Source: Sphingomonas koreensis (lineage in GTDB: Bacteria > Pseudomonadota > Alphaproteobacteria > Sphingomonadales > Sphingomonadaceae). From it: DNA of 64,000 bases. The notes under the pieces are model-generated. The model was not told the origin of the DNA, did no database searches, and saw nothing but the letters and a program-made list of their open reading frames with translations. Where the stretch lies: positions 4,276,501-4,340,500 of the forward strand of contig NZ_PGEN01000001.1 in NCBI RefSeq assembly GCF_002797435.1, given 5' to 3'. A program made the position numbers and the translations under genes. This document shows, piece by piece, positions 1,131 to 15,463 of this stretch (the stretch's first letter is position 1; each line of letters starts with the position of its first letter).

Positions 1131-1465
1131 CACCTCATCCCCGAAAGCACGGTGCTGCCGATCGGCAGGTCGAACACCATCGCCTCGCGGAAGAAGCCGT
1201 TGGCGGTCGCTTCGGTCAGCCGGTCATGCGCCGGATGGCTGAGGAAGCGGTCGCGCTCCGCTGCTCCGGTAAAGGTCATGACGGCGCCGAAATCCCAACC
1301 GCGCGCCAGCCGCGACGGGCTGACATTGCGACCTGCCTCGATGCCGAGGACTTCTGGAATTTCGCCGGGCAGCGCTTCGAACTGGGCTTCGACCTGCGTC
1401 AGCCGATCCGGATCGAGGTTTTCGACAAGCCGGTAGACGACGACATGGCAGAGTCGGGCGGTCAT
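1130..1465 (-). CDS. Dabb family (stress-responsive alpha/beta barrel) protein
   Basis: This is a 111-residue protein with the features of a single Dabb domain: an opening strand LCHVVVYRLV, a central VSPSRLARGWDFGAVMTF strand pair and the typical helix FLSHPAHDRLTE. Dabb proteins form small ferredoxin-like dimeric barrels, and most have no assigned reaction. Its start overlaps the stop of the GMC oxidoreductase by four bases (ATGA), so it is translationally coupled to it. The context suggests an accessory role to the oxidation system, which is inference only. Confidence 0.85.
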   Translation of the reverse strand: MTARLCHVVVYRLVENLDPDRLTQVEAQFEALPGEIPEVLGIEAGRNVSPSRLARGWDFGAVMTFTGAAERDRFLSHPAHDRLTEATANGFFREAMVFDLPIGSTVLSGMR

Positions 1466-3207
1466 GCCGCACCGCCTTCCGCGCCGACGCGGGTCCGCTG
1501 CGCGGGCTCGGGGATGTTGTCGCAGACGCGATAGGCGTTGGCGATCATCGTCAGCGACGGGTTGCTGGCCCCCGCCGTTGGCATGAAGGCGGCGTCGATG
1601 ACGTAGAGCCCCTCGACCTCGTGGGCCTGGCAGTTGGCGTCGAGCACAGATGCGCCCCGATCGGTTCCGGCGCGCAGCGATCCGTGGTTGTGGCCATAGC
1701 CGGGGTTGGCGAGCGTCTGGGGCCGGTTGACGCGCAGCTCACCGCCGGCATTGCCGACGATATTGGCGACGCGATCCAGCGCATAGGCGCTGAGCGCAAG
1801 GTCATAGGGGTGGTGCTGGTAGTAGGTCAGCGCGACCGGCTGCCCATAGGGATCGGTCTTGAGCGGGCGCCCGCCCAGGCCGTCGGCCAGCTCGACGCGA
1901 TTGTCGTATTTGGACATCGTCTCGCCGGTGAACGAGAAGGAGACGCCGCCATTCTCGCGCAGCTCGATCAGCCGTTCTTGCAGATGCCGCCCCCAAAGGC
2001 GCGATCCCTTTTCGGGCATACCGGTCCGGTACAGCGCCTTCAGCGGCGGATTGATCGTGATCGGATCGTAGATGGAGAATTTACCGCCTTTGCTCAGCGG
2101 CGAATTGCTGTCGTTGATGACGTACAGGTCGCGGAGCTGAAGGCTGCCGAGCGAAGTGCTCGGCTGATAGGGATAGGTCGGGTCCATCGATCCCCAGACC
2201 GGCTGGTTGGGGAAGGTGAATTCGAGGTCGCCCTTGGTGTGATAGGTGAGATAGCGTCCGGCCAGCCCGTTGGGATTGGGCAGGCCTGACAGCAGATAGA
2301 GCCGCGCGGATTCGATCGCCTGGATCGAGACGATGACGATCGGCGCCGTGAGCGTGGTCGGCGCGCCGCCCGGTTCGGTCACATATTCCACCCCCGTCAC
2401 GCGATGGCCGCGCTCGCTGCCCGGCGCCGGCTCGTGAAGCAGGCGCAGGACATTGTGCCCGGTGCGGAGCTCGCACAGGCCCGAAGCCAGCGCCTTGCGC
2501 AGGACGGTGTCGGCGGCGCCCGACCGGCAGTTGGATGCGCAGCCGAAGCCCTGGCAGAAGCCGCAGAAGGGACAGCCGGGGCGGCTGTCGTTGGTCCGCG
2601 AGTTGATCCCGCGCGGACTGCGATAGGGAAACATCCCCGCCTTGTTGAAGATGAAGCGGAGGAAGGAGGACGAGCCATGCTCGCGGATCGGCGGCATCGG
2701 ATAGTCATACCCCGCGCGCATCGGCTCCTGCGCGGGCGATTGCCGCGCCTGGCCGGACACGCCCCAGTCCCATTCGGCCCGTTCGAAATAGGGCTGGAAC
2801 TGCTGGTAGGTCCACGGCCAGTCGATCATGCTGACATCGCCGGGGATGTCGCGCAGATACTGGGTGACCGAGAAGTCCTCCTGCGTGTAGCGCGGAAGAT
2901 TGGCTTCCCACTGGTTGGTCGATCCGCCGACCATGTTGGTGATCCACCAGCGCTCGCTGGATACCGGCGTCGCATCCGGCTTTGACGTATCGATGTAGAG
3001 CATCGGATCGTCGCGGCGCGACGGGACCATGGCCTTGTGATCGAGGAAGTGGAGCTCGTCGAGCGGGATGAAATCCTCTGCATTGCTCGGCCCGCCGCGC
3101 TCAAGGACAAGGACACTGAACCCGCGCTGGGTCAGCGCGCGCGCGGCCGTCGATCCGCCGGCGCCGCTGCCGACGATGATGACATCGGGCTTGTCGATGG
3201 TCGGCAT
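1462..3207 (-). CDS. GMC family FAD-dependent oxidoreductase with cysteine cluster
   Basis: This 581-residue flavoprotein oxidises an alcohol or sugar of unknown identity. The N-terminus has the FAD-binding GSGAGGSTAARAL loop near residues 13-25 and an ERGG strand end. The C-terminus has the GMC signature around YVIDAAFMPTAGASNPSLT, preceded by HNHGSLRAG. A cysteine-rich stretch (C212, C215, C218, C223, C227) matches the position of the cluster in gluconate and FAD-glucose dehydrogenase-type GMC enzymes, where it passes electrons on. No signal peptide is visible. The gene immediately behind the start encodes a subunit-3-like partner, which supports a two-subunit dehydrogenase. No cytochrome subunit is seen in the operon. 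Confidence 0.9.
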   Translation of the reverse strand: MPTIDKPDVIIVGSGAGGSTAARALTQRGFSVLVLERGGPSNAEDFIPLDELHFLDHKAMVPSRRDDPMLYIDTSKPDATPVSSERWWITNMVGGSTNQWEANLPRYTQEDFSVTQYLRDIPGDVSMIDWPWTYQQFQPYFERAEWDWGVSGQARQSPAQEPMRAGYDYPMPPIREHGSSSFLRFIFNKAGMFPYRSPRGINSRTNDSRPGCPFCGFCQGFGCASNCRSGAADTVLRKALASGLCELRTGHNVLRLLHEPAPGSERGHRVTGVEYVTEPGGAPTTLTAPIVIVSIQAIESARLYLLSGLPNPNGLAGRYLTYHTKGDLEFTFPNQPVWGSMDPTYPYQPSTSLGSLQLRDLYVINDSNSPLSKGGKFSIYDPITINPPLKALYRTGMPEKGSRLWGRHLQERLIELRENGGVSFSFTGETMSKYDNRVELADGLGGRPLKTDPYGQPVALTYYQHHPYDLALSAYALDRVANIVGNAGGELRVNRPQTLANPGYGHNHGSLRAGTDRGASVLDANCQAHEVEGLYVIDAAFMPTAGASNPSLTMIANAYRVCDNIPEPAQRTRVGAEGGAA

Positions 3208-3222
3208 GATTCGCTTCCCCCT

Positions 3223-3732
3223 TCAGACCAGCTCGAGCTTCTCGGCGTCGCCGAGATAGCCGAGCCAGCGCCACATGATCCGGTTGCGGTTCCCGCCCCA
3301 TCGCGGGTCGGCCCAGCAGCCCTGGAGGCAGTGGCGCCAGAGCGTGTCGAACAGCCGTCTCTGATCCGCGGCGCTGCCCATTCGCGCGAGTTCCCCGCGC
3401 TCGAGCAGGTCGATCAGCGCGGTGGCGTCGTCCGCGCCGAGTTGCGCGAGCGGCGTTCCGAACCGCGCGGTCGCCGCGGCATCAAGCGCGGCGAGCCAGT
3501 CGTGATAACCAGCCTGCCAGCTTGCCAGGTCCTCGTGCAGCTTGACCGGACCGGCTGGGTCCATCTCCAGCAGCCGGTCGAGGTAATCGACCGCGCCGCA
3601 GTCGCCCGCCCCGGGGATTCCGCGTGCCGCGTCGCGCGGCTGGATCGCGCTGAACAGCACCGCCAGTTGCGCCCGCTCCGCATCGGTGAAGTAGCGCGTC
3701 TCGGGCAGGCGGAATTCGATGTCCCAGGCCAT
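3223..3732 (-). CDS. Gluconate 2-dehydrogenase subunit 3-like protein
   Basis: The 169-residue product is mostly helical. It resembles the small subunit 3 of gluconate 2-dehydrogenase-type complexes, with an opening RYFTDAERAQLAVLFSAIQP and later WADPRWGGNRNRIMWRWLGY. In known complexes this subunit accompanies the GMC flavoprotein and is often exported by the Tat route with it. No twin-arginine leader is visible here, so this pair may stay in the cytoplasm. ATG 3732 lies five bases after the stop of the upstream fusion gene, and the stop is 15 bases before the GMC gene, so all three are co-transcribed. Confidence 0.75.
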   Translation of the reverse strand: MAWDIEFRLPETRYFTDAERAQLAVLFSAIQPRDAARGIPGAGDCGAVDYLDRLLEMDPAGPVKLHEDLASWQAGYHDWLAALDAAATARFGTPLAQLGADDATALIDLLERGELARMGSAADQRRLFDTLWRHCLQGCWADPRWGGNRNRIMWRWLGYLGDAEKLELV

Positions 3733-3737
3733 GACGG

Positions 3738-5522
3738 TCAGCCCGCCACGGCCGGCGCGCGGCGCGGCAGCAATATGTCCTCGAGCGCGTCCTGGATTCC
3801 GGCCTCGAGTGCCGGGAAGCTCAGATATTGCGGGCCGCGCTCCTCGAAGATCTGCTCGCCGAGCGCCGGGTAGGTATCCCAGCCCATGCCGAGATACTGG
3901 CCGACGTCGCGGCCGAAATAGTTGGCGATCATCGCTATGGTGCTGCCATGCACGCCGCTTCCCCCGGCGGAGGTCCAGATCTTTCCGTCGACCTGGCCCG
4001 CCCACATGGTGCGTGGCTGGAGGACGTTCGCGCCTTCCTCCTTGAGCCGGCGTGAGACCGTTGCGGCGCAGGTGACCGGTGTGTCGCCGATGATCCCGGC
4101 ACGATGCAGGATGGAGATGCCCGAGCAGTTGGTGCCGACGACCTTGCCGGCGGCATGATGCTTGCGGACGATGTCGAGCAGCCGCTCGTCCTTGCTCGCC
4201 TCGCCGCTGCCCAGCCCGCCGGGGACGAACAGCAGGTCGAACAGGTCTTCAGGCTCGACCGCGCCGTCGGTGAAGACGCGCGTCCCCATCTGCATCTCGA
4301 CGACCTCGGGATCGGGCTCGGCGACCCGCAGCAGCCGGACGCGAAGCTGCTTGCCCTGTTCGGCGAGCACCATCGTGGCGTGCTTCAGGATCTCATAGGG
4401 GACGAGCGTGTCCTGCTCGCCGCAGCGATGATAGGCCATGACGGCCACGGTCTTGATGTCGGGCATCCCGTTTCCTCCGCTTTGCGGTTGCAGTTCCTGT
4501 TCGAGGTCGGCGATCAGCATCAGCCAGGGGCCAAGGTCGCCCGGGCCGAACCGCTCCATCAGTTCGACGATCACTGCGTCCGAATGGCCGTTCAGGTGCT
4601 TGCCGATCCCCGGCAGCGTCTCGTCATTCTCGCGGCGCGCATGCTCGCGGTAGAGCGCGACGAAATCGTCCAGCGCCTCGCGGAACAGGGCGGTCGCGGC
4701 GATATCGCCTGCACGGATCCGCGCGAGCGTGTCGCGCATCGTGGCGAACAACTTCCGCCCGGCATCGTGGTCGGCATAAACATAGGCGGCGTCCGCTTCG
4801 GGAAAGCCGTTGGCGAAGGCGAGCGGCAGCAGCACCCGCTCCTCGACACTGTGGTGATAGCGGTCGATGAATTCGTGGAGCAGGAAGACGAGCAGCCCCA
4901 TCGCGCGCAGCGGCGGTGCCTCGCCCGCGCCGATCTTCTTGGAGATCGCGGCGGAGGCCATGACCAGCCGCCGACCGATCAGGTGATCCTCCTCCATGAT
5001 CTGTTCGGCCAGCCGCCCGCTGTCCGTTTCGGTTGAGGGGCGTGCGGCAATGTCCTTGGTCAGGAATTCGCGGCCGGGCGGGCAGGGCTTGAGCTCGGCC
5101 TGCATCCCCGCCGCGCGTGCGCCGAGCACCTCAAGGAAGTTTTCGCCGACGAACAGGCATTCCTCGGGCACGAGCCCAAGCTTCGCCGCCGCATAGCGGT
5201 AGATCTCGGCGCTCGGCTTGTCCGCCCCGGCATCATGGTTGGTGATGAAGCCGGCCGGGTCGAGGAACCCGGCGATCCCGGCATCGGTGATCATCTTCAG
5301 CCCCGCGGCGCTGTCGACGTTCTTCGGCAGGTTGGTGATGATGCCGATCCGGCAGCCGAGCGTGCCGCCCACGGTTTCCAGCAGCGTCTGGGTCGACGGC
5401 TTGTAGGTCACCAGATGACCCGGTCGGTCGACATAACCCAGCGTGTCTTTCGCATCGAAGAAGATGGCTTTGATCACGGCAATCGGCCCCCGCTTGCGTT
5501 CTTCAAACGGGATAGCGGCCAT
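3738..5522 (-). CDS. HAD-like / hemerythrin HHE / DJ-1-PfpI three-domain protein
   Basis: One uninterrupted frame of 594 residues joins three families. Residues 1-165 are HAD-like; motif I reads DAKDTL, so the second Asp of DxD is Lys, as in dehalogenase-type rather than phosphatase HADs. Residues about 185-320 form an HHE hemerythrin helix bundle (HEFIDRYHHSVEE, then YREHARRENDETLP). Residues 353-594 are DJ-1/PfpI-like with a TNCSGISILHRAG nucleophile elbow. A strong ribosome site (GGAGG) precedes an in-frame ATG at 4466, exactly at the DJ-1 start, so a separate 242-residue DJ-1 protein may also be made. GTG 5477 behind a GGGGG stretch is an alternative main start. It is the first gene of the operon. 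Confidence 0.75.
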   Translation of the reverse strand: MAAIPFEERKRGPIAVIKAIFFDAKDTLGYVDRPGHLVTYKPSTQTLLETVGGTLGCRIGIITNLPKNVDSAAGLKMITDAGIAGFLDPAGFITNHDAGADKPSAEIYRYAAAKLGLVPEECLFVGENFLEVLGARAAGMQAELKPCPPGREFLTKDIAARPSTETDSGRLAEQIMEEDHLIGRRLVMASAAISKKIGAGEAPPLRAMGLLVFLLHEFIDRYHHSVEERVLLPLAFANGFPEADAAYVYADHDAGRKLFATMRDTLARIRAGDIAATALFREALDDFVALYREHARRENDETLPGIGKHLNGHSDAVIVELMERFGPGDLGPWLMLIADLEQELQPQSGGNGMPDIKTVAVMAYHRCGEQDTLVPYEILKHATMVLAEQGKQLRVRLLRVAEPDPEVVEMQMGTRVFTDGAVEPEDLFDLLFVPGGLGSGEASKDERLLDIVRKHHAAGKVVGTNCSGISILHRAGIIGDTPVTCAATVSRRLKEEGANVLQPRTMWAGQVDGKIWTSAGGSGVHGSTIAMIANYFGRDVGQYLGMGWDTYPALGEQIFEERGPQYLSFPALEAGIQDALEDILLPRRAPAVAG

Positions 5523-5663
5523 CGTTGCGGCGCGCGGTGAGCCTGCACACACAGCTTCTGTGATTTTTCGCACGTTCGGGATCCGGGGAAGGGTGCTTCG
5601 GCGTCCGATCGCCATTGCCTTGCCCGGACCACTGCTGTTTATTCGTGTCCGGCGGGGGCTGCG

Positions 5664-6356
5664 ATGCAACAGGGCGAACGGCGCGGATTGCTCGGAATCT
5701 TGAGCGCGGAGGCGCGCCGCGACCTGCTTGCCCGTTCCGGCACGATACGGGTGCGCAAGGGGCAGGCGGTGGTCGCGCGCAACGAACCCTCGGGCGACGT
5801 GTTCGTCGTTCAGGAGGGACGCTTCAACGTCGTACGCTATTCGGTCGACGGGCGCGAAGTCTCGATGCGCGAACTGACCGAAGGACAGCTGTTCGGTGAA
5901 CTTTCGGCGATCGACGGCGCCGCGCGATCGGTCGGCATCGTCGCGGTGACCGACGGCCGCCTGCTCGCCATCCCGCCAGAGGCCTTTCGCGCGATGATCC
6001 GAAGCCATCCCGATGCTGCGGACTGGCTCATCCGCCGGCTGACCGAGCAGGTCCGCAGCCTCACCGATCGTGTGTTCGAGCTGAGCGCGCTCAACGTCCG
6101 CACCCGTCTCCATTGCGAACTGCTTCGGCTCGCCAGATCGCGTGACGGCGACAGCGCGAGCGCCCCGACCCATGCGGAGCTGGCGAACCGGATCGGCTCC
6201 CACCGCGAAGCGGTAACGCGCGAACTTGCCATTCTAGCGGAACGGAAGATCATCCGCGCAGGCCGCAGGCGCCTCGAATTTCTCGATCTCGCCGGATTGG
6301 AGGAAGTCGTCTCGGCCGCTCTGCACGATCCCGCGGGTGATTCAGGGTGGTGGTGA
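5664..6356 (+). CDS. Crp/Fnr family transcriptional regulator
   Basis: This is a 230-residue regulator. The N-terminal half is a cyclic-nucleotide-binding fold, with IRVRKGQAVVARNEPSGDVF, then GQLFGELSAIDGAARSV in place of the classical phosphate-binding cassette. The C-terminal half is a winged helix, with HAELANRIGSHREAVTRELAIL as the recognition region. No N-terminal cysteine cluster is present, so it is not an oxygen-sensing FNR. It is divergent from the oxidoreductase operon with about 140 bases between the starts, which makes it the likely local regulator. The signal is unknown. Confidence 0.88.
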   Translation: MQQGERRGLLGILSAEARRDLLARSGTIRVRKGQAVVARNEPSGDVFVVQEGRFNVVRYSVDGREVSMRELTEGQLFGELSAIDGAARSVGIVAVTDGRLLAIPPEAFRAMIRSHPDAADWLIRRLTEQVRSLTDRVFELSALNVRTRLHCELLRLARSRDGDSASAPTHAELANRIGSHREAVTRELAILAERKIIRAGRRRLEFLDLAGLEEVVSAALHDPAGDSGWW

Positions 6357-6786
6357 CCGACGCCTCATGAGTCTTGCAAGGGCTTGTCTTGAGCTGTTCT
6401 TTGAAGGTCCGGTCTGTTTTGTTTCCTGAATGGGTCTGCTGCCTGTTGTGATTCCACCCTCATCGTGCAAGTCTGATCCACGGCGACCGGGGGGTGGTAC
6501 AGCATGCCGGATTCACAGGCGGAAGTTCCTGCGACGAACGATCTTGCCCGGGGCCCCATCCAATGGGCGGCGTCCAGGCGGACGGGCAATGTATCGGAAA
6601 TCGCGGTCCTCGCGCCGATCCGCAAGGGCTGCGTGCCCGGCGAGACCGCCACCTTCGAAGAAGCGCTGCGCGCAACGATCGCGAACATCACCCAGCGCCT
6701 TCAGCAGGGGCTGCCCTCGGAACTCGACAAGGTTCCGACGATCCATTTCGGACGGATGATCATCCTGCGCCCCGAACAGTATCTAG

Positions 6787-8434
6787 CCTCTCCTATTCAC
6801 GAGGCCGGGATTTTGGGCTGTTCTGATTGTGTTCAGCCGATAGCGGTTTGACCTGGGCGAGCGCCATCGGCGGTGTTTTTCACCGTGTCAGGAGCGATGG
6901 GCTTTTCAGGGTTGAAGGACGAGGGCTCGGGGTCTGGGCGGCGCTGCCGCGCTGGCTATGTAGGAGTTGGCCGGAAGCTGGTGGCGATGTCTTTGAACAC
7001 GCTGGCATCCGGGCAGGCTGAAGCGAAGGCAATGCGGATACGCGAGGCGCTTTCGATGACGCGGGCAGCGACCTTGAGCAGCCGCAGGCGCAGGGTCGCG
7101 AACTCGGCAGCGGCCAGCGCGGTGGCCTTGGGAATGGCCTGCTGGATGCGCCACATCAGCCAGTAGGCGGCGGTGTGCAGAATGAGGCGCATCTGGTTGG
7201 CATTGGCTGAGCGGCACGAAGTGCGATCGCTGGCGAGCTGCGACTTGTGGCGCTTGATCAGGTTCTCGGCCTGGCCGCGCGCGCAGTAGAGCGTGTCGTA
7301 GATATGCTCGGCCGATCCGTCCTGAAGCGAGGTAACGACATAGCGGATGTCCATACCCAGCGTGCTGGCCTCGATCCGGGCGACGACGCGGCGCCGACAC
7401 TTCCAGCTTTTGGCGCCGTAGCGGGTCTCGGCATAGTTGCGCAGGACGGGGTATTGGCGCTGAGCGCGCTTGACCGCGCAGGCATCGGCGGCCGCGACGA
7501 TGACCGGATCGGCACGCAGCGCGGCGTTGGTTGGCAAGCCGAACACGTAATCGACGCGGTGCGCCTCGCAGAACGCCATGACCTCGGGCCGCCCATAGTG
7601 CCCGTCACCACGGATGGTGATGTGGGTATCGGGCCAGTGCCGGCGGATATGGCGCACCAGGCGCCGGATGTGGCCGGCAGCTTCGGCGCCCGACGGCGTC
7701 TTGCCGGTCCGCAGCAGCATCGCCACCGGGCGGCCGGTCGCAGTGTCGTAGACGTGGATCGGCAGGAAGCAGCGCTCACCGTGATGACCATTCCAGAACG
7801 ACAACTGCTGGTAGCCGTGGACGACATCGCAGGTATCATCGATGTCCAGCGTCACCGCCGCCGGCGGGGCGGGATAGCTGGCGCAGTAGATGTCGATCAT
7901 CGCACCCATCATCCTGGCCAACTCACGCGTGGTCGGTGCATTCTCCCACCTGCTCATCGTCGGTTGGCTCGCAAGCCCGGCACCTGATCCCGGCAACTTG
8001 CCCAGCGCCAGGCGGAAGCCTGGATCGTCGCGCAGGGCATCGAGATCATCGGCATCCTCATAGCCGCAGGCGATCGCGAACGTGCGGGCACGCAGGATGT
8101 CATCGAGGCGATGGATCACCCGCGCAGGATCGCGCGGGTCGGCAATGCAAGCCGCAAGCCGACGGCAGATCCCCATCGCGCGCTCGGCCTGCGCCAGCAG
8201 CAGCACACCGCCATCCGAGGTCAGCCGGCCACCGTCGAACGCGGCTGTGAGCTTTTTGCCGCCAATGGCTGGAAACGAAAATCCAAGCGCGTTATCCTCG
8301 CTCTCGGCGGGTGTGGCCTGTGGCATTTTTTGCCTCGCTGCAGGACTGGTCTAGACACCCATTTTCCTACTGCAAAGCAAACGCTTACGCCACTCCCGCC
8401 AACCCTTCACCCCCACCGCGGTGAATAATTCAGG
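6787..8434 (-). mobile_element. IS1380-family insertion sequence, 1648 bp
   Basis: The ends are imperfect inverted repeats: the left end reads CCTCTCCTATTCACG, and the right end read inward is CCTGAATTATTCACC. Both flanks carry the same 4-bp sequence CTAG (6783-6786 and 8435-8438), the target duplication size known for IS1380 elements. The length fits that family (about 1.65 kb), and one full-length transposase fills it. Both ends and the transposase are intact, so the copy could be active. Confidence 0.93.
6956..8326 (-). CDS. IS1380-family DDE transposase
   Basis: This is the 456-residue transposase of the element above, apparently complete. The candidate catalytic triad is visible: Asp in TLDIDDTCD, Asp in IRGDGHYG, and Glu in CARGQAENLIKRHKS, the Y/R-rich helix typical of IS4/IS1380 relatives. 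The N-terminal region GGRLTSDGGVLLLAQAER is also typical. It is transcribed against the interrupted gene. Start ATG 8326 lies about 108 bases inside the right end, which leaves room for a promoter. Confidence 0.95.
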   Translation of the reverse strand: MPQATPAESEDNALGFSFPAIGGKKLTAAFDGGRLTSDGGVLLLAQAERAMGICRRLAACIADPRDPARVIHRLDDILRARTFAIACGYEDADDLDALRDDPGFRLALGKLPGSGAGLASQPTMSRWENAPTTRELARMMGAMIDIYCASYPAPPAAVTLDIDDTCDVVHGYQQLSFWNGHHGERCFLPIHVYDTATGRPVAMLLRTGKTPSGAEAAGHIRRLVRHIRRHWPDTHITIRGDGHYGRPEVMAFCEAHRVDYVFGLPTNAALRADPVIVAAADACAVKRAQRQYPVLRNYAETRYGAKSWKCRRRVVARIEASTLGMDIRYVVTSLQDGSAEHIYDTLYCARGQAENLIKRHKSQLASDRTSCRSANANQMRLILHTAAYWLMWRIQQAIPKATALAAAEFATLRLRLLKVAARVIESASRIRIAFASACPDASVFKDIATSFRPTPT

Positions 8435-8994
8435 CTAGTCTATTCCGAGAGTGTCGCCGGATTGTCTTACGAGGAGGATGGCGCCGGGCTTGCCGATGCG
8501 GCCGGCCGGCGGATTCCGCGGCCGATCGACGATTTCCGTGAAGTCGCCACCACCAGCGCGCCGGTCCCTGTGCCTGAGTTCCGGTCCTGGATACTGACCC
8601 TCGTCGAGTTCGACGGCGACCTCAAGGTCTATATGCGCGACATCGCGCGCATCCTGAATTCGGATTTCGACAAGGTCTTCCGCAATTGCGAAGACTATCC
8701 CGGCACAAGGCGGTTCGAGCAGTTCTGGCAATGGATCCGGCGCTATCAGATCAACACCGATCTGTTCTACGCGCCCTACGCGGACCTGTCCGTCGCGAGG
8801 CTCAAGCAGCTCGAGGCATTCAAGCGCCGCTTCGACCAGTTCGTCGCTCGCGTGCGTTCTCCGCATGGCCCGACCGTGCGGTCGATGGACGAACTGTTCG
8901 ACGAGTTTCTGCGCGAGAATCAGCAATATGCCCGCGACTTCCCGTCGCCAGGCGGGGTCTATCGTCCTCGCAGCACTTCGGATGGGAGCTAGAT

Positions 8995-11900
8995 TTGGAC
9001 AGGACTGATCCAGTACCGGATTCCGTCGCGGCAACGCGCGCGAATGTCCAGGCGAGCTTGCTTCGCGCGCCAAAGACCGGCGGCGACCACCAGCGGACAC
9101 GGAGCTGGGCGCTGTTCGTCTTTTTCCGGATCATGAGCGAGAACGAGCTCGCGGCCACTCGTGAGCGTATTCTTGCGCTTCATGATAGCGCGGAGGGCGT
9201 CGCTGGTGAGATGGGGCCGCAGGAGAAGCTCCGGATCGACCTCGCGCATCCGGGCGTGCTGAACGCCGCACTTGCCGATCCCGAAGCAGAGGCTGCGCCG
9301 GCGGAGGCATTCCGCAATTGGCTCAAGGCACTGGTGTCGAAGGACGCGGAACCGATGCGGGCGACCCTCGCCGGCTTCGGCGAAGCGATCCAGGCCGGGA
9401 TGGCGGTCGCCGCGATGGCTGATGGCGAGGCGGAAATGCCACTGCCAGCTGGCCTCGATGCCTCGCCCGGCGCGGTGCATGCCAGCGCCGCAATGCTTCT
9501 CGACCTATTGCGCGGCTTCATGACCGAAGCGGGCTATGCCCACCTCGTCGAACGCGCGGAGGAGCAGTTCAAGGCGGTCGCCGCGGACGACGCGGACGAC
9601 GCGGCCGGTCCGGTCCTGCCGCCGCTGCTTTTCTACGAGTTCCTTCGCGCGGGCGCTCCGGCGTTCGAGCCGGGCAGGGGCCTGCCGCCGGCGATCCGTA
9701 GCGAGGCCGATCAGAAGGCGCTGGCTGGCGATGCCGACAATGCCGATCGGATGCCGATCAGCTTCGCCTTCACTCATTCCGGGCTTCAGGCGCTCCGGTT
9801 CGATGCGAACACGCTCGCCTCCTTTCCGGACGCCTTCAAGGAAGGAATGGCCGCGCGCGCCCGGCGGCTGAGGGATACCGGCCCGAGCGCGCCGGAATAT
9901 TGGGAAGGCGAGCTCGGCCTGAAGAGCGTGCACGGCTATTTTACCGGAGGCTTTGGTACCCATGCCTATCCCACGTCAGAGGCATTCTGGAAGAAGCTGC
10001 GCGCCGAAGCCCGCGCCTTCAATGACGCCACGGACGACGCGAAGGAGCAACTGCGCGAGTTGATCGGCGTCCTGTTCCGGTCGGTCGGGCTGGAAATCGT
10101 CCATATCGAGCTGGGGCAGGATCCGCATCAGCATGCTGACGATCAGGCCGCGCTGCTGGATTCGTCGGCGCGCCAGACGCCGCGAACGGAGCATTTCGGC
10201 TATCGCGACAATCTCAGCCAGCCCTTCGTCGATCTCGGCCTTGGCGATACGCTGCCAGGCGGCGGGACGGCGTCGCGGCTGCCGAGCTGGACGCCCGTCG
10301 CGCCTGGCGAGATCTTCCTCGATCAGCGCGACGAGGATGGCGAAGAGCATGCGTTGCCCGTCCACCCGGTGCTCCGCCGTGGATCGACCTTCCTCGTGTT
10401 CCGGAAGCTTGAACAGGATGTCCCGGGCTTCCGATCGTATCTCGGCCGTCAGCGGCCCGGCGATCCACAGGCGCAGGACGCGCTCGGTGCCCAGATGGTC
10501 GGCCGGTGGAAGAATGGCGCATCGCTCGTCGCTGCCCCTTGGCACCAGCCGCATGTCGATGCCGATGCGGAGGGTACGCTCAATGATTTCCGCTATGCGG
10601 CCGATGATCCGGACGGCAGACGCTGTCCGCTGGGCGCGCATGTTCGCCGCTCCAATCCGCGCGACATCGGGGGGCGCAACGATGTGCGGCGGCATCGTAT
10701 CCTTCGGCGCGGCATCAGCTATGGCGGTCCTCTGCTGCCCGAGAATTCCGCGGGGGATGGCGAGAAGCGCGGGATGCTGTTTGTCGCCGCCAATGCGCGG
10801 ATCGACCTGCAGTTCGAGGTGATCCAGGCGGACTGGATCAATAGCGGCGAATTCCTGGGCCAGGCGGGGCTCGACCGCTGCCCGCTGACCGGCGCGAATG
10901 GCGGCACGAGGGCCGACCGTTTCTTCGAAGCGAGTGCAACAGCGCCTGTCACGGACATTCCGCGCTTCGTCTACACGAAGGGGGGCGACTATTTCTTTCT
11001 GCCGGGGATCGAGGCGCTGAAGGGGATCGCCGAAGGCGAGACCTTCGCGGTTCCGTCCAGCCAGCTTCCCTATGGCGGCTACAGCATGGGCGATGCAGTC
11101 ACGCCCTCTCTGTACAGCGAGAGCCGTATCAAGACCTATGCACGGACCGTGCTCGCCACGCCAAAGCGCGCGGTGCGCGTCGCGACGCCTGGAAACGGCA
11201 GGGTCGTCAGCTTCGTCGGCCGTCATGACGACGTCACCCGAATCCTGAGCAACCGGGTCGCCGGTGACACGGTCGAGTTTTCCGTCCGCGCCTATCACGA
11301 GGCGAGCCAGCGGATCACCCGCGGCAGCGACATGCTGATCGGCACCGATGAGACTGGTCCGACCTGTCCGGCGCGGCATCGGCTGAAGCCGATCCTCGAC
11401 CACGCCTGGAACACGCTCGCGCAGCACTACGGCCAGACCGGTGGGATCGATGCCGCGTTGCGCGACATCGCGCGGGTCAGGCTCGACGCGGCGCTGCGGC
11501 GGACGGCGCATGCTCGCCGGATCGATCTGGTCGCCGACATCGCGACTCAGGCGGCCTATGGCGTCGTCACCGATCTGTTCGGCATGCCTGGCCCGTCATG
11601 GGTGACCGAGCTCGGTCTCGCACTGCCGTTCGCTCGCCAGCATGTGGGCGACCTGCCTGCCGACTGGCTCGCCGCGTTCAAGGGCGAGCGGACGGCCGAT
11701 CCGGGACTTACCACCATGCAGGTCTGGACCGCGGTGATGGTGGTCGATCTCATCGGTAACCTCCAGAATCAGGCTACCCTGCACGCGCTGTCACGACAGG
11801 CCGGGTCTGAGATGCTGATCCATATCGATGCCCGGCTTGCCGAGGTGCGCAGTCGCCCTGCCGCGGCTGCCGGAACGCTGGTGGGTGCCTTTGTCGCGAA

Positions 11901-12543
11901 CGAAGCGCTCCACGAGGTTCAGGACCTCTACAAGCATGTGCCGGCGGGAGAGGATTGGCGGAAGCTATACTATCAGGACGTCTCGATGATCCTGATCGAG
12001 ATCCTCGGCTCGACGCTGGCGGTGATTCCGCTGACCTTCGCGTCGGTGATGACCAGCCTGCTCAACTTGCGGATCGCACTCCCGGCACTGCCCCGCCTGG
12101 ACAATGCCGCGATCGAGGCGTTGATCTACGAGGCTGAGCGGCTCAACCCCAATCTTCCGGTGCGGATGCGCCATTGCGAAGCGGATACCGATTGGTCGCG
12201 AGAGCTCGGGATCGCCGCGGGGGACTCGGTCGCCGCGCTGATCGCGGCGGCGAACATGGATCCGAGAAAATTCCCCGATCCGACGCGCTTCTCGCTCAAG
12301 GGGGCGGGGGTCGGCGACGCGCCTGCCCGCAAAATCGGGGATTACCTGCTGTTCGGCATTCCCGGCAGCCACAAGGATTGCTGGGGCCGCAATCGGGTCG
12401 CGATGCCGGTCCTTCAGGAATGCATTCGTGCATGCAGCCGACTGACCGGTCTTCGCCGCGTCGCCGGGCGGGCGGGGGAGCCCCAGAAGCTTGCCGGGGT
12501 CACCATCGGGTTGCTCGCGCGCTTCACGCGGCTGACGTCGTAG
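8995..12543 (+). CDS. DyP-type heme peroxidase fused to a cytochrome P450
   Basis: This is a 1182-residue two-heme-domain protein. The first ~690 residues are a DyP-type peroxidase. They contain the SFAFTHSGLQAL strand, FGYRDNLSQPF with catalytic Asp405 (the usual GxxDG ends in Asn), GAHVRRSNPRD with proximal His549, and RILRRGISYGG with Arg571/572. From about 720 on it reads as a P450: MLIGTDETG, DLVADIATQAAYG, ExxR (E1046-R1049), FPDPTRFSL, and a heme loop FGIPGSHKDCWGR with Cys1129. That loop has one extra residue between His and Cys, and the I-helix GSTLAVIP (about 1005) lacks the acid-threonine pair for O2 activation. TTG 8995 is chosen for its GGGAG site and the DyP-like N-terminus it includes. 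No redox partner is near. The substrate is unknown. Confidence 0.85.
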   Translation: MDRTDPVPDSVAATRANVQASLLRAPKTGGDHQRTRSWALFVFFRIMSENELAATRERILALHDSAEGVAGEMGPQEKLRIDLAHPGVLNAALADPEAEAAPAEAFRNWLKALVSKDAEPMRATLAGFGEAIQAGMAVAAMADGEAEMPLPAGLDASPGAVHASAAMLLDLLRGFMTEAGYAHLVERAEEQFKAVAADDADDAAGPVLPPLLFYEFLRAGAPAFEPGRGLPPAIRSEADQKALAGDADNADRMPISFAFTHSGLQALRFDANTLASFPDAFKEGMAARARRLRDTGPSAPEYWEGELGLKSVHGYFTGGFGTHAYPTSEAFWKKLRAEARAFNDATDDAKEQLRELIGVLFRSVGLEIVHIELGQDPHQHADDQAALLDSSARQTPRTEHFGYRDNLSQPFVDLGLGDTLPGGGTASRLPSWTPVAPGEIFLDQRDEDGEEHALPVHPVLRRGSTFLVFRKLEQDVPGFRSYLGRQRPGDPQAQDALGAQMVGRWKNGASLVAAPWHQPHVDADAEGTLNDFRYAADDPDGRRCPLGAHVRRSNPRDIGGRNDVRRHRILRRGISYGGPLLPENSAGDGEKRGMLFVAANARIDLQFEVIQADWINSGEFLGQAGLDRCPLTGANGGTRADRFFEASATAPVTDIPRFVYTKGGDYFFLPGIEALKGIAEGETFAVPSSQLPYGGYSMGDAVTPSLYSESRIKTYARTVLATPKRAVRVATPGNGRVVSFVGRHDDVTRILSNRVAGDTVEFSVRAYHEASQRITRGSDMLIGTDETGPTCPARHRLKPILDHAWNTLAQHYGQTGGIDAALRDIARVRLDAALRRTAHARRIDLVADIATQAAYGVVTDLFGMPGPSWVTELGLALPFARQHVGDLPADWLAAFKGERTADPGLTTMQVWTAVMVVDLIGNLQNQATLHALSRQAGSEMLIHIDARLAEVRSRPAAAAGTLVGAFVANEALHEVQDLYKHVPAGEDWRKLYYQDVSMILIEILGSTLAVIPLTFASVMTSLLNLRIALPALPRLDNAAIEALIYEAERLNPNLPVRMRHCEADTDWSRELGIAAGDSVAALIAAANMDPRKFPDPTRFSLKGAGVGDAPARKIGDYLLFGIPGSHKDCWGRNRVAMPVLQECIRACSRLTGLRRVAGRAGEPQKLAGVTIGLLARFTRLTS

Positions 12544-15463
12544 CATCGCCGTTGGGCAGGAAAGCCGGGACGGCGACCAGGCCATGGCGGGCGCAGATCG
12601 CATCGCGCTCAGCCAGATCCGCCGCGATACGCGGATCGCCGGGAACGCTTTCCTCGAGCAACCGGGCACGAAGGCCGAGTCCGTCAACGATCAGGCATGG
12701 GCTGTTTGTGCGGCGCGCGACGTCCAGCGCCTCGGCAAGTTTCTCCAGCCCTTCATCGGTCCTGCCGCTCCGATAGAGCGCCTCCGCATGGCCGATATGG
12801 AGATTATACACCTCAAGCTGCCCGGTCCGCTCGTGCAGCCCCAGACGCAGGCACTCCTCGACGATCTCGATCGCTTCCCGCGTCCGGCCGATCCGCGATA
12901 GCGCCGCCGCCGAGCGGCCCGCCAGATTGGGCCGGATCGCGTCATAGCCGTTGCGCTCGCTGATCGCGCGCGCAACGGCCAGGCACGCCGCTGATTCCGC
13001 GTTACGCCCGAGAAGAAGCAGGTTCCGGCCGAGTGCATTACGTGCGAGTGCTTCCGAATAGGCATCCCGCTCGCGCATCGCGATGGCAAGGGCGCGTTCG
13101 GCGAAACCCAGCCCCTCATCCAGCTGTCCGACATCGACCAGGAACCAGCTCATGAATGCCAGTGCCGTGGCGCTCGGGATACCCGCGGCACCGAGGCGCG
13201 CGGTTTCCAGCTCGCCGGTCAGCATGTCGCACAGCGCACGCTCCTCGGCGATCGCGCGGTGCACTTCGCCCATGCCGTGCAGGATGTTCGACTGCATGAT
13301 CTGATTGGAGAAGATCAGCGCCGGCGATTCCAGAATGCGCGCGATGGCGATCCCTTCTTCGGTCGCCCGCAGTCCTTCTTCGTAGCGTCCCTCGAACCAG
13401 CAGATCATGCCGAGCTGGGAGAGCGTACTGGAGATCAGCGCCGGGCGGTCGAACCGTCGCACCAGATCCATCACCCGCGGTAGATGCAGATTGACCTTGT
13501 CGAACTCGCCGAGCTGCACCATCGAGGCGAAGGCCATCAGGACGAAGTCGGCATATTTCTCCTCGGCGGCGTCGCCGATGCGGCCGATGACCTCCAGTGC
13601 GCGATCGAAGATCAGATCGAGCGACGCTGCCGCCGAACTGCGCCGCGCCTCGAGACCGGCCCTCCAGAGATAGTCGAGCGCAGCGATATCGTCGCCCGCA
13701 CCCTCGGCATGAATGGCGAGTTGTTCGTATCGCCCCGCCAGATCGGAATGGCGGGATAGAAGCGCGCTGACGGCGGCGGCATGAAGCCGTCTGCGCCGAT
13801 GGCGTCCGATAGTGTTCGCGCATGCTTCGGCAATGATATGGTGGCGCAAATGGGTCGACCGTTGTGACGGCGGGTGGATGAACGCGAAGCGTTCGAGGGC
13901 GTCGAGATCGCCTTGCAGCGCTTCCTCCTCGACCCCCATCACTGCGGCGACGAACCCGATATCCACATTCTCGCCAAGCAGGCTCAGCGCCTGTGCAAGC
14001 GCCTTGCCGCCGGGTGGAAGCCGCTCCAGCCGGGCATGTATGACGGATTCGACGCTGGGCGGCAGCGCCAGCGGTGGCGTGGCCGGCCGGTTCTCGACCG
14101 ATCGAACCAGTTCCTCGAGGACGAAGGGTATGCCTTCCGCGCGCGCGACGAAATGTTCGAGCATCGTTTCGGTATCGCGACGCCCCGCCCATAGCCGCCG
14201 CCCCAGGCTCGCCATGTCGGCCGCCGGCATCGGTTCGACGACGATGATACTGTCCGCTATCTTGTCGGCATCCGCGCGCGCCTCGGGCCTGCCGGTCATG
14301 AGCAGAAACAGCGGCTGTCCGGTCCGCTCGCAGGCGAGGAGCCTTAGGAACAGCCTGCTTTCCGGATCGACATATTGCAGATCCTCGACCAGCAGGATCG
14401 CTGGCCGGTCGAGCGCCAGCGCGCAGAAGGCGTTGACGAAGGCTCGCGCGAGCTGGTTCTGGTTCAGCGCCGCGGACTGCTTGCCAAGCTCCGATGAATG
14501 AGAGGCAAGGGCGGCTTCAAGCGCCGCGATATCGTCTGTGTCGAGTGAAAGCGCGGCGAGCGTATCGCGCAGATTGCGGCTGGAAGGTTGAAGCGCAGCA
14601 TCGAGCAGGCTTTCGACAAGGTGACGGGCTGCGGCAAAGGGCGTGGTTCGCCGCTGCGCATCGCCGAAGAAGATCATGTGCCGGATGCCGAGCGCGATTG
14701 CGTCCGCGACGGCAGCGAACGCCAGGCGGCTCTTGCCGATGCCCGGTTCGCCCACCAGCGCGATCGAGCGGCTCGGCTGCCCGTTTCGCGGCAGCGCAGC
14801 CGCGAGAAGCGCGACTTCGGCGTGGCGGCCGACGATGGGCAGCCGGTAGCGCTGGGCGATGTCGGTTGTCCGCCTGTTCTCCGGCCGCGCTTCGAGCTTG
14901 TAGGGAAGCGAACCGATCGTCCGCAGTGCCTCCGTCGCCTCCTCGGGGGCCAGGGCAAGCCGCATGCGGCAAAGCTTCGCCGTCTGCGCGCTCACCAGGA
15001 TATTGCCGCCTTGCGCGGCCTGTTGCAGCTTGGCGGCAATATTCACCGTCGCGCCGACGGTGTTCAGATGCAAATTGCCGTCGCGATCGACGCGGCGCAC
15101 GGCGGCGAGGCCTGAATGCACGCCGACGCGAAAGCGGATCGGCTGGCCGCCGGGGCCTAGCCGGCGCTCGGGAACGATCTGGAGATCCCATGCCGCCGCG
15201 CAGGCACGATCGGCGTGGTCCTCGAGCGGGGTCGGCCATCCGAAGACCGCGATGCCGCCATCGCCTTCGTAACTCACCAGCTTGCCGCCGCTCCGTTCGA
15301 CGGTTTCGCGGAAATGCTCGAACCAATGGTCGAAGAGCAGCAGGGCGTCCTCGGGGTCGCAGTCCACGATATGCTGCGTCGAGTTGGCAATATCCGCTGC
15401 CAGGATCGTGACTATTCGACGCTCGGGAGCGAGTATTTCCGACGAAGATGGCTCCGGCTGCAT
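12524..15463 (-). CDS. Class III cyclase-like / AAA ATPase / TPR regulator
   Basis: This is a 979-residue signalling protein. Residues 15-165 are a class III nucleotide cyclase fold with both metal Asp residues (LAADIANST, D24; YEGDGG, D68). The catalytic segment reads VGATVNIAAKLQ: the transition-state Arg is Lys145 and the base-contacting Asp is Ala138, so activity is doubtful. Residues 205-480 form a STAND-type ATPase with Walker A GEPGIGKS (238-245) and Walker B ILLVEDLQ. The remaining half is TPR-like helical repeats such as ERALAIAMRERDAYSEALAR. It has no DNA-binding domain. It converges on the DyP-P450 gene, and the two 3' ends overlap by 20 bases. A role in sensing the same stress is only inferred. 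Confidence 0.85.
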   Translation of the reverse strand: MQPEPSSSEILAPERRIVTILAADIANSTQHIVDCDPEDALLLFDHWFEHFRETVERSGGKLVSYEGDGGIAVFGWPTPLEDHADRACAAAWDLQIVPERRLGPGGQPIRFRVGVHSGLAAVRRVDRDGNLHLNTVGATVNIAAKLQQAAQGGNILVSAQTAKLCRMRLALAPEEATEALRTIGSLPYKLEARPENRRTTDIAQRYRLPIVGRHAEVALLAAALPRNGQPSRSIALVGEPGIGKSRLAFAAVADAIALGIRHMIFFGDAQRRTTPFAAARHLVESLLDAALQPSSRNLRDTLAALSLDTDDIAALEAALASHSSELGKQSAALNQNQLARAFVNAFCALALDRPAILLVEDLQYVDPESRLFLRLLACERTGQPLFLLMTGRPEARADADKIADSIIVVEPMPAADMASLGRRLWAGRRDTETMLEHFVARAEGIPFVLEELVRSVENRPATPPLALPPSVESVIHARLERLPPGGKALAQALSLLGENVDIGFVAAVMGVEEEALQGDLDALERFAFIHPPSQRSTHLRHHIIAEACANTIGRHRRRRLHAAAVSALLSRHSDLAGRYEQLAIHAEGAGDDIAALDYLWRAGLEARRSSAAASLDLIFDRALEVIGRIGDAAEEKYADFVLMAFASMVQLGEFDKVNLHLPRVMDLVRRFDRPALISSTLSQLGMICWFEGRYEEGLRATEEGIAIARILESPALIFSNQIMQSNILHGMGEVHRAIAEERALCDMLTGELETARLGAAGIPSATALAFMSWFLVDVGQLDEGLGFAERALAIAMRERDAYSEALARNALGRNLLLLGRNAESAACLAVARAISERNGYDAIRPNLAGRSAAALSRIGRTREAIEIVEECLRLGLHERTGQLEVYNLHIGHAEALYRSGRTDEGLEKLAEALDVARRTNSPCLIVDGLGLRARLLEESVPGDPRIAADLAERDAICARHGLVAVPAFLPNGDATTSAA

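Follow-up and report, generated by a model that had tools for sequence, protein, structure and literature searches.

A bacterial protein joining a DyP-type peroxidase to an unusual cytochrome P450

A single polypeptide chain encoded in Sphingomonas koreensis joins two unrelated heme enzymes, a DyP-type peroxidase and an unusual cytochrome P450. Its gene occupies positions 8995–12543 on the plus strand of the 64,000-nt stretch of DNA analysed here (the window) and forms a frame that is open throughout. The TTG start lies 2 nt behind the stop codon of a small partner gene, X (ending at 8992), and is homologous to the start of database protein P0002, which is 97% identical. The 1182-residue product comprises a DyP half (residues 7–682; 9013–11040, plus strand) and a P450 half (residues 703–1178; 11101–12528, plus strand). 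A preliminary description of the locus had read one frame as DyP followed by P450, while raising the concern that a frameshift might have joined two genes. As the same order recurs in 120 listed homologues, in other genomes and in divergent lineages, a frameshift or misassembly is ruled out and the original reading stands. Whole-chain pTM of the structural model is high, suggesting a fixed arrangement of the two halves. Together with X and a convergently transcribed cyclase-like/AAA/TPR regulator, the fusion forms a recurring cassette.

The N-terminal half adopts a DyP fold by prediction and retains the catalytic Asp (D405, 10207–10209, within the motif GYRDN), the proximal heme ligand (H549, 10639–10641) and the distal Arg (R571, 10705–10707; all plus strand) in 121 of 121 aligned sequences. 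The nearest solved structure is Deinococcus radiodurans DyP (8re2/8re3), followed by an ancestral D-type DyP and fungal DyPs. While fold and catalytic residues are common to all of these, the fusion differs from solved DyPs in a long, mostly helical insertion in its N half (predicted at residues ~65–250), in carrying GxxDN instead of GxxDG (the last Gly is Asn in six of the 121 sequences) and in the P450 fused behind it. Curated models scored the fusion below their cut-offs (Pfam DyP_N, 23.8 versus 27.5 bits; TIGR01413, 82.5 versus 100.5), and PF21105 is carried by most of the 120 listed homologues. A peroxide-using, His-ligated heme peroxidase is the best explanation for the DyP half.

Within the C-terminal half, the K-helix ExxR (E1046–R1049, 12130–12141, plus strand), a further arginine (R1059), the proximal Cys ligand (C1129) and the Gly of its CxG motif (G1131) are likewise invariant among the 121 sequences. 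Both Pfam and a six-frame P450 search of the strain's own genome missed this half, with PF00067 (p450) reaching 15.4 bits against a cut-off of 22.8 for the window protein alone. Despite these misses, absence of the P450 fold is ruled out: a 17-sequence profile matched P450s in the PDB at 1.3e-25, in agreement with Foldseek and VIA. The residues named in the preliminary description (D405, H549, R571, E1046, R1049 and C1129), and with them both sets of heme ligands, are therefore present as proposed and are conserved, and both halves would be expected to bind heme. The HMM check it recommended came out divided: Pfam p450 and DyP_N stayed below threshold, but both folds are strongly backed by profiles and structure comparison; its structural check returned a P450 rather than another fold.

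The best P450-type match in NCBIfam, TIGR04515 (7.6e-10; 38.7 bits versus a cut-off of 343), is a family of P450-derived glycosyltransferase activators, and this weak profile similarity raises the idea that the P450 half is a non-catalytic binding or activator domain. Four gammaproteobacterial fusions, which lack the Glu of ExxR, point the same way. Such activators, however, lack the heme Cys, whereas Cys1129, along with ExxR and R1059, is kept in all 121 aligned sequences, and no glycosyltransferase gene was recognised among the recurring neighbour clusters. We regard an activator role as improbable. By fold and ligand residues, the half is a variant P450.

What sets this half apart is its heme loop and I helix. 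The loop (F1120 to G1131; 12352–12387, plus strand) is two residues longer than usual: eight residues separate Phe1120 from Cys1129 in 100 of the 121 sequences and 9–18 in the other 21, compared with six in the ordinary P450s of our comparison set (such as the unfused neighbour at locus L090). The F-x6-C spacing, a common though not strictly required signature, is hence absent. The single extra residue previously noted between the loop's His and Cys is literally there in the window protein, yet His1126 occurs in only 10 of 121 sequences. Conserved instead is a basic residue at 1127 (Arg in 74, Lys in 43, His in four), which gives a normal [H/R]-x-C spacing and so places the two extra residues between Phe and 1127. 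Profile alignments to solved P450s, which set the register, put the columns of the usual acid-Thr pair at A1009–V1010 (12019–12024, plus strand). The pair is missing, as had been proposed, and none of the 121 sequences has an acid there. Seven residues before the usual acid position, E1002 (11998–12000, plus strand) is invariant in all 121.

Ordinary bacterial P450s (P450BioI, CYP134A1/CYPX, CalO2, CYP125) share the fold, ExxR and Cys ligand with the fusion but differ from it in the acid-Thr pair, the invariant E1002, a heme loop that is longer by at least two residues, and the attached DyP. Being the closest in fold, they suggest an O2-dependent monooxygenase that draws on a ferredoxin encoded at another place in the genome, with the DyP clearing stray H2O2 or oxidising the product further. 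Some ordinary P450s function without the complete acid-Thr pair, and of the 28 alpha/gamma fused loci five still have it, namely L040 and the four from gammaproteobacteria. Nevertheless, the acid is missing from every aligned relative and no gene for a redox partner was recognised in the recurring neighbour clusters, which makes this account unlikely.

Across loci, P450s from at least two clades have become fused to DyP, and X adjoins the DyP or is fused to it at 81 of 88 loci. Position 1002 is Glu or Asp in all 28 alpha/gamma fused loci and in none of nine comparators; clade-b P450s carry Gly there (8/8). Among P450s that are fused to DyP or belong to a clade with fused ones, the acid is missing at 31 of 36 loci. 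Unfused P450s lie within 5 kb of a DyP at 14 loci, six of them being clade-b P450s without the acid. Mere nearness to a DyP is ruled out as the cause of acid loss by the seven checked of the eight nearby P450s outside clade b, all of which have an acid at that column (L048, L055, L059, L060, L062, L068 and L089, the L062 alignment being doubtful); the eighth, L057, is near-identical to L055. DyP and P450 also occur as separate neighbouring genes (for instance at L090, L103 and L109), as would be expected if two independent enzymes were tethered for co-expression only, their chemistry uncoupled. The repeated origin of the fusion and the fixed arrangement suggested by pTM argue against such tethering, which we consider very improbable.

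The best reading, in which we place about even confidence, is that the P450 half uses peroxide rather than O2 and a reductase. It would then be a thiolate heme enzyme, most likely without reductase-driven O2 activation, whose oxidant enters as H2O2 or an organic hydroperoxide. In place of the lost pair, E1002 might act near the pocket as an acid-base or substrate-positioning residue. Being linked, the halves could oxidise one substrate in two coupled steps or draw on a single, shared peroxide supply. Several findings count against peroxide use: E1002 sits seven residues before the acid, farther along the helix than in Thr-to-Glu precedents; five of 28 loci keep the pair, and the four gammaproteobacterial ones among them also lack the Glu of ExxR; clade b has Gly at 1002; and nearby P450s keep the acid. 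Peroxide-driven chemistry is established for CYP152 fatty-acid peroxygenases (P450BSbeta, P450SPalpha), in which, according to excerpts of PMC9820634, an Arg near the heme works with the substrate carboxylate. Residues 990–1014 of the window protein contain neither this I-helix Arg nor the distal Asn of CYP74 hydroperoxide lyases and allene oxide synthases.

A rival reading, raised in the preliminary description, is that the DyP makes an organic hydroperoxide which the P450 rearranges without external oxidant, as in fungal dioxygenase–P450 enzymes. The fungal and oomycete fusions (PpoA, LDS, AOS; CYP6001–6005, CYP5619) also combine a heme peroxidase and a P450 in one chain. Peroxidase-first order, described for CYP6001–6005 in excerpts of PMC5919972, and loss of the acid-Thr pair fit this proposal, as do the few relatives whose Thr column holds Asn (4/121; also L036, L038, L039 and L042); the fungal fusions are, as far as known, self-sufficient (excerpts of PMC13049297). 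Those enzymes are eukaryotic, however, and their peroxidase belongs to the peroxidase-cyclooxygenase superfamily (excerpts of PMC4420034 and PMC13049297), whereas the bacterial N half is a DyP by residues and fold, outside that superfamily. The window protein itself lacks the distal Asn, no lipid gene was recognised among recurring neighbour clusters, and the heme-loop argument depends on a non-conserved His; nor do we know of DyPs acting as fatty-acid dioxygenases. An isomerase is distinctly unlikely, and a general user of peroxide, a peroxygenase, would explain the invariant Glu of the I helix at least as well.

Extending peroxide use to the whole cassette, we tentatively suggest a two-heme peroxide relay, which is possible if doubtful: P450s would have joined the same DyP and X on two or more occasions, giving up O2 activation for peroxide, with the invariant I-helix Glu of the alpha/gamma clade as catalytic or positioning acid and a tail-to-tail cyclase-like/AAA sensor in control. 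To our knowledge, heme peroxidase–P450 fusions are known only with a eukaryotic cyclooxygenase-type peroxidase. A bacterial DyP–P450 chain made more than once would mean that another kind of peroxidase had been put to convergent use. Among the papers listed by PMC searches on DyP–P450 or peroxidase–P450 fusions and DyP/P450 operons, no title or abstract opening mentioned a bacterial DyP–P450 fusion. The natural roles of DyPs are mostly unclear, and the fusion would give them a physiological context; it may also be a source of P450s that by nature need no reductase, a property sought in biocatalysts.

The convergent regulator (979 residues; 12524–15463, minus strand) combines a class III cyclase-like domain, an AAA_16 ATPase and TPRs (Pfam), and its 3' end overlaps that of the fusion gene by 20 bp. 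It lies directly downstream, tail-to-tail, in 26 of 31 fused loci and within 6 kb in 28, and would probably sense and control the cassette. The two metal Asps are kept in 19 aligned relatives, none of which has the purine-specifying Lys or a complete Asn-Arg pair. Upstream, a CRP-type regulator (5664–6356, plus strand; Pfam cNMP_binding, 5.8e-21; HTH_Crp_2, 1.9e-11) is a recurrent but optional neighbour, with relatives near seven of 31 fused loci including this one; five of the seven went into the profile used for this count. A role in anti-phage defence was considered: of four proteins searched with PADLOC, only the two regulators in the set gave matches, to Pycsar cyclases across their cyclase domain (best, 1.9e-12) plus a single weak one to PDC-S27, and nothing was returned for the fusion or X at E ≤ 0.01. 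The upstream GMC oxidoreductase gene (1462–3207), considered as a further member, was not seen among the cassette's recurring neighbours.

X would work with the DyP step and is a putative member of the dimeric alpha/beta-barrel proteins, whose core is ferredoxin-like (beta-alpha-beta-beta-alpha). It has no Pfam or NCBIfam match above chance, and all named homologues among the 120 listed are hypothetical proteins. In the window, an IS element (6787–8434; TIR/TSD scan) splits X into a 5' part (6504–6786, plus strand; X profile, 119.5 bits at 6549–6791) and a 3' part (8435–8992, plus strand; 257.9 bits at 8435–8974), the only X profile matches in the genome; with X broken and no other copy found, the strain offers a natural X-less background. 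The element encodes a DDE_Tnp_1_4 transposase (6956–8326, minus strand; Pfam, 4.2e-168), is bounded by imperfect terminal inverted repeats (11/20 positions) and flanked by CTAG direct repeats (6783–6786 and 8435–8438). A promoter scan of 6350–9050 returned no promoter-like site. The genome holds six full-length IS copies at 100% identity, the one in X included, and the mechanically called reading frame of the 5' part of X runs on to 6851, within the element.

The fusion gene is a single open frame at 8995-12543 on the plus strand, which runs without interruption for 1182 codons from a TTG start, two bases beyond the stop of the upstream gene for the small partner protein X; a 97%-identical database protein has its start codon at the homologous position. 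Pfam profiles for both the N-terminal DyP half and the C-terminal P450 half matched, yet each stayed below its cut-off (DyP_N, 23.8 vs 27.5 bits; Dyp_perox_C, 14.5 vs 20 bits; p450, 15.4 vs 22.8 bits). The NCBIfam match to Dyp (3.4e-23) was likewise under cut-off, the top P450-type match was to a P450-derived glycosyltransferase activator (7.6e-10), and a six-frame PF00067 search of the organism’s own genome detected two ordinary P450s and missed the P450 half of the fusion.

With E ≤ 0.001 as the limit, a search among 5.8 billion proteins returned 266 homologues; the best 120 are 45-97% identical to the fusion and cover 77-100% of the query. Names among them such as ‘deferrochelatase/peroxidase EfeB/cytochrome P450’ indicate that annotation had noticed both halves. 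We compared 88 loci (the best 80 of 169 stretches encoding a relative in a genome collection, seven further relatives’ stretches and the window): DyP and P450 share one frame in 31, one of them (L085) counted on a weak 22.6-bit match at a contig end, and an unfused P450 gene lies within 5 kb of DyP in 14. Open frame, homologue coverage and one-frame loci together support the earlier claim of a single-frame fusion. Among the matches listed from 385 genomes of the class, both halves fell in one frame in four (G000, G067, G150 and G245); in two (G245 and G067) a stop lies within the match, and in another (G000) the stop is that of X, upstream of the fusion start. A full-length match occurred only in the window’s own genome among 37 of the genus (the window’s included), and the spread of the fusion is therefore patchy. 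In Reyranella soli NBRC 108950 the DyP-P450 cassette occurs twice, as copies that differ from each other (L027 and L036).

Literature searches for a peroxidase/DyP-P450 fusion or a DyP/P450 operon found no bacterial case, nor did the literature searched yield a description of the cassette. Since the known peroxidase-P450 fusions use a peroxidase of another superfamily, we rate the DyP-P450 protein as a new version of a fusion already known as a kind.

A quick DyP tree with long branches (86 of the 88 rows; near-duplicates L039 and L051 dropped) united alpha- and gammaproteobacterial fusions (support 85), set L045, L082 and L085 apart, and required the fused state to have changed three times or more. 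The P450 tree, also long-branched (44 rows; near-duplicates and L085 omitted), placed all alpha/gamma fused P450s in one clade (97) and those of L045 and L082 in another, here clade b (97), with six unfused DyP neighbours (L080, L083, L090, L093, L103 and L109), so that the same partners joined at least twice. This recurrent joining is the best evidence that P450, X and DyP act together; in Ktedonobacter (L090) they are three adjoining genes. X also adjoins DyP where no P450 was found, in many of L046-L102 and L105-L107 from several phyla, an apparently uncharacterised pair; in L100 and L104 the two share a single frame. A class III cyclase-like/AAA_16/TPR regulator gene (window 12524-15463) is convergent to the fusion in 26 of the 28 fused loci having it. 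Its cyclase domain keeps the metal Asps and has not kept the usual substrate and transition-state residues, making a pseudo-cyclase in a STAND-like protein possible.

The I-helix acid-Thr pair was indeed missing: in four printed alignments to solved P450s of three kinds, A1009 stands where the acid usually is and V1010 where Thr is expected, and none of the 121 aligned sequences (the best 120 of the 266 homologues plus the window’s) has an acid at these columns. In a 51-row P450 alignment, grouped by tree clade rather than distance to DyP, the acid was absent from 23 of 28 alpha/gamma fused loci, both other fused loci (L085, with its P450 part cut short, is not among the rows) and all six unfused neighbours in clade b; it was found in all nine comparators, four of which (L026, L027, L029 and L033) are close kin and three (L059, L060 and L068) themselves no more than 5 kb from a DyP. 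These sums exclude another six rows from the database, none of which has the acid. Four more DyP-near P450s outside clade b have the acid too (L048, L055, L089 and, by a doubtful alignment, L062). The pair is retained in L040 and four gammaproteobacterial fusions (L052, L054, L056 and L064); these four gammas keep Cys and Asp-Thr, lack the K-helix ExxR Glu by alignment and, in three of four, keep its Arg. Position 1002, seven residues before the usual acid, is Glu or Asp in 28/28 alpha/gamma fused loci and Gly in all eight clade b P450s; because many rows are close kin, neither acid nor 1002 counts are independent. E1002 aligns with L244 of P450cam, a pocket residue.

Kept in 121/121 are D405, H549, R571, E1002, E1046, R1049, R1059, F1120 and C1129-W1130-G1131. 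The heme loop is longer than usual, with eight residues between F1120 and C1129 in 100 sequences, while the remaining 21 have 9 to 18, against six in ordinary P450s of the same alignment. The lengthening had been placed between His and Cys, but that His occurs in 10/121. Residue 1127 is basic throughout (R 74, K 43, H 4), so the insertion precedes it and the [R/K]-x-C spacing is normal. L038, L039 and L042 have more than 25 residues between Phe and Cys, Asp in place of E1002 and Asn at the Thr column.

DyP enzymes form compound I with peroxide, and the DyP half would be expected to do the same. The P450 half, by its residues a candidate thiolate heme binder, would work without the pair used in O2 activation; we infer that it draws on peroxide, with E1002 as candidate acid. 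Glu in place of the conserved Thr lets P450s use H2O2 (PMC9820634), and distal acid-base residues are present in natural peroxide-using P450s (PMC8944620). E1002 might alternatively hold substrate. If the P450 half does use peroxide, the oxidant could be an organic hydroperoxide handed over by DyP, or else H2O2 that both halves use. The earlier suggestion that one chain forms and then isomerises a peroxide is a special case of peroxide use and an unlikely one. The idea survives the absence of a distal Asn from the window’s protein because this Asn can be dispensable in fungal fusions (PMC13049297), and a few relatives do have Asn at the Thr column.

In the window, an insertion sequence with a DDE_Tnp_1_4 transposase (6783-8438), present in six full-length, 100% identical genome copies, interrupts X at CTAG; no second X was found in this genome, and the fusion frame downstream is intact. 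Further upstream, on the minus strand, a GMC oxidoreductase gene adjoins a gluconate 2-dehydrogenase subunit 3-like gene (1462-4005 for the pair), and one mechanical 821-aa frame (3738-6203) holds consecutive HAD, hemerythrin and DJ-1/PfpI matches, a putative fusion or a readthrough of separate genes.
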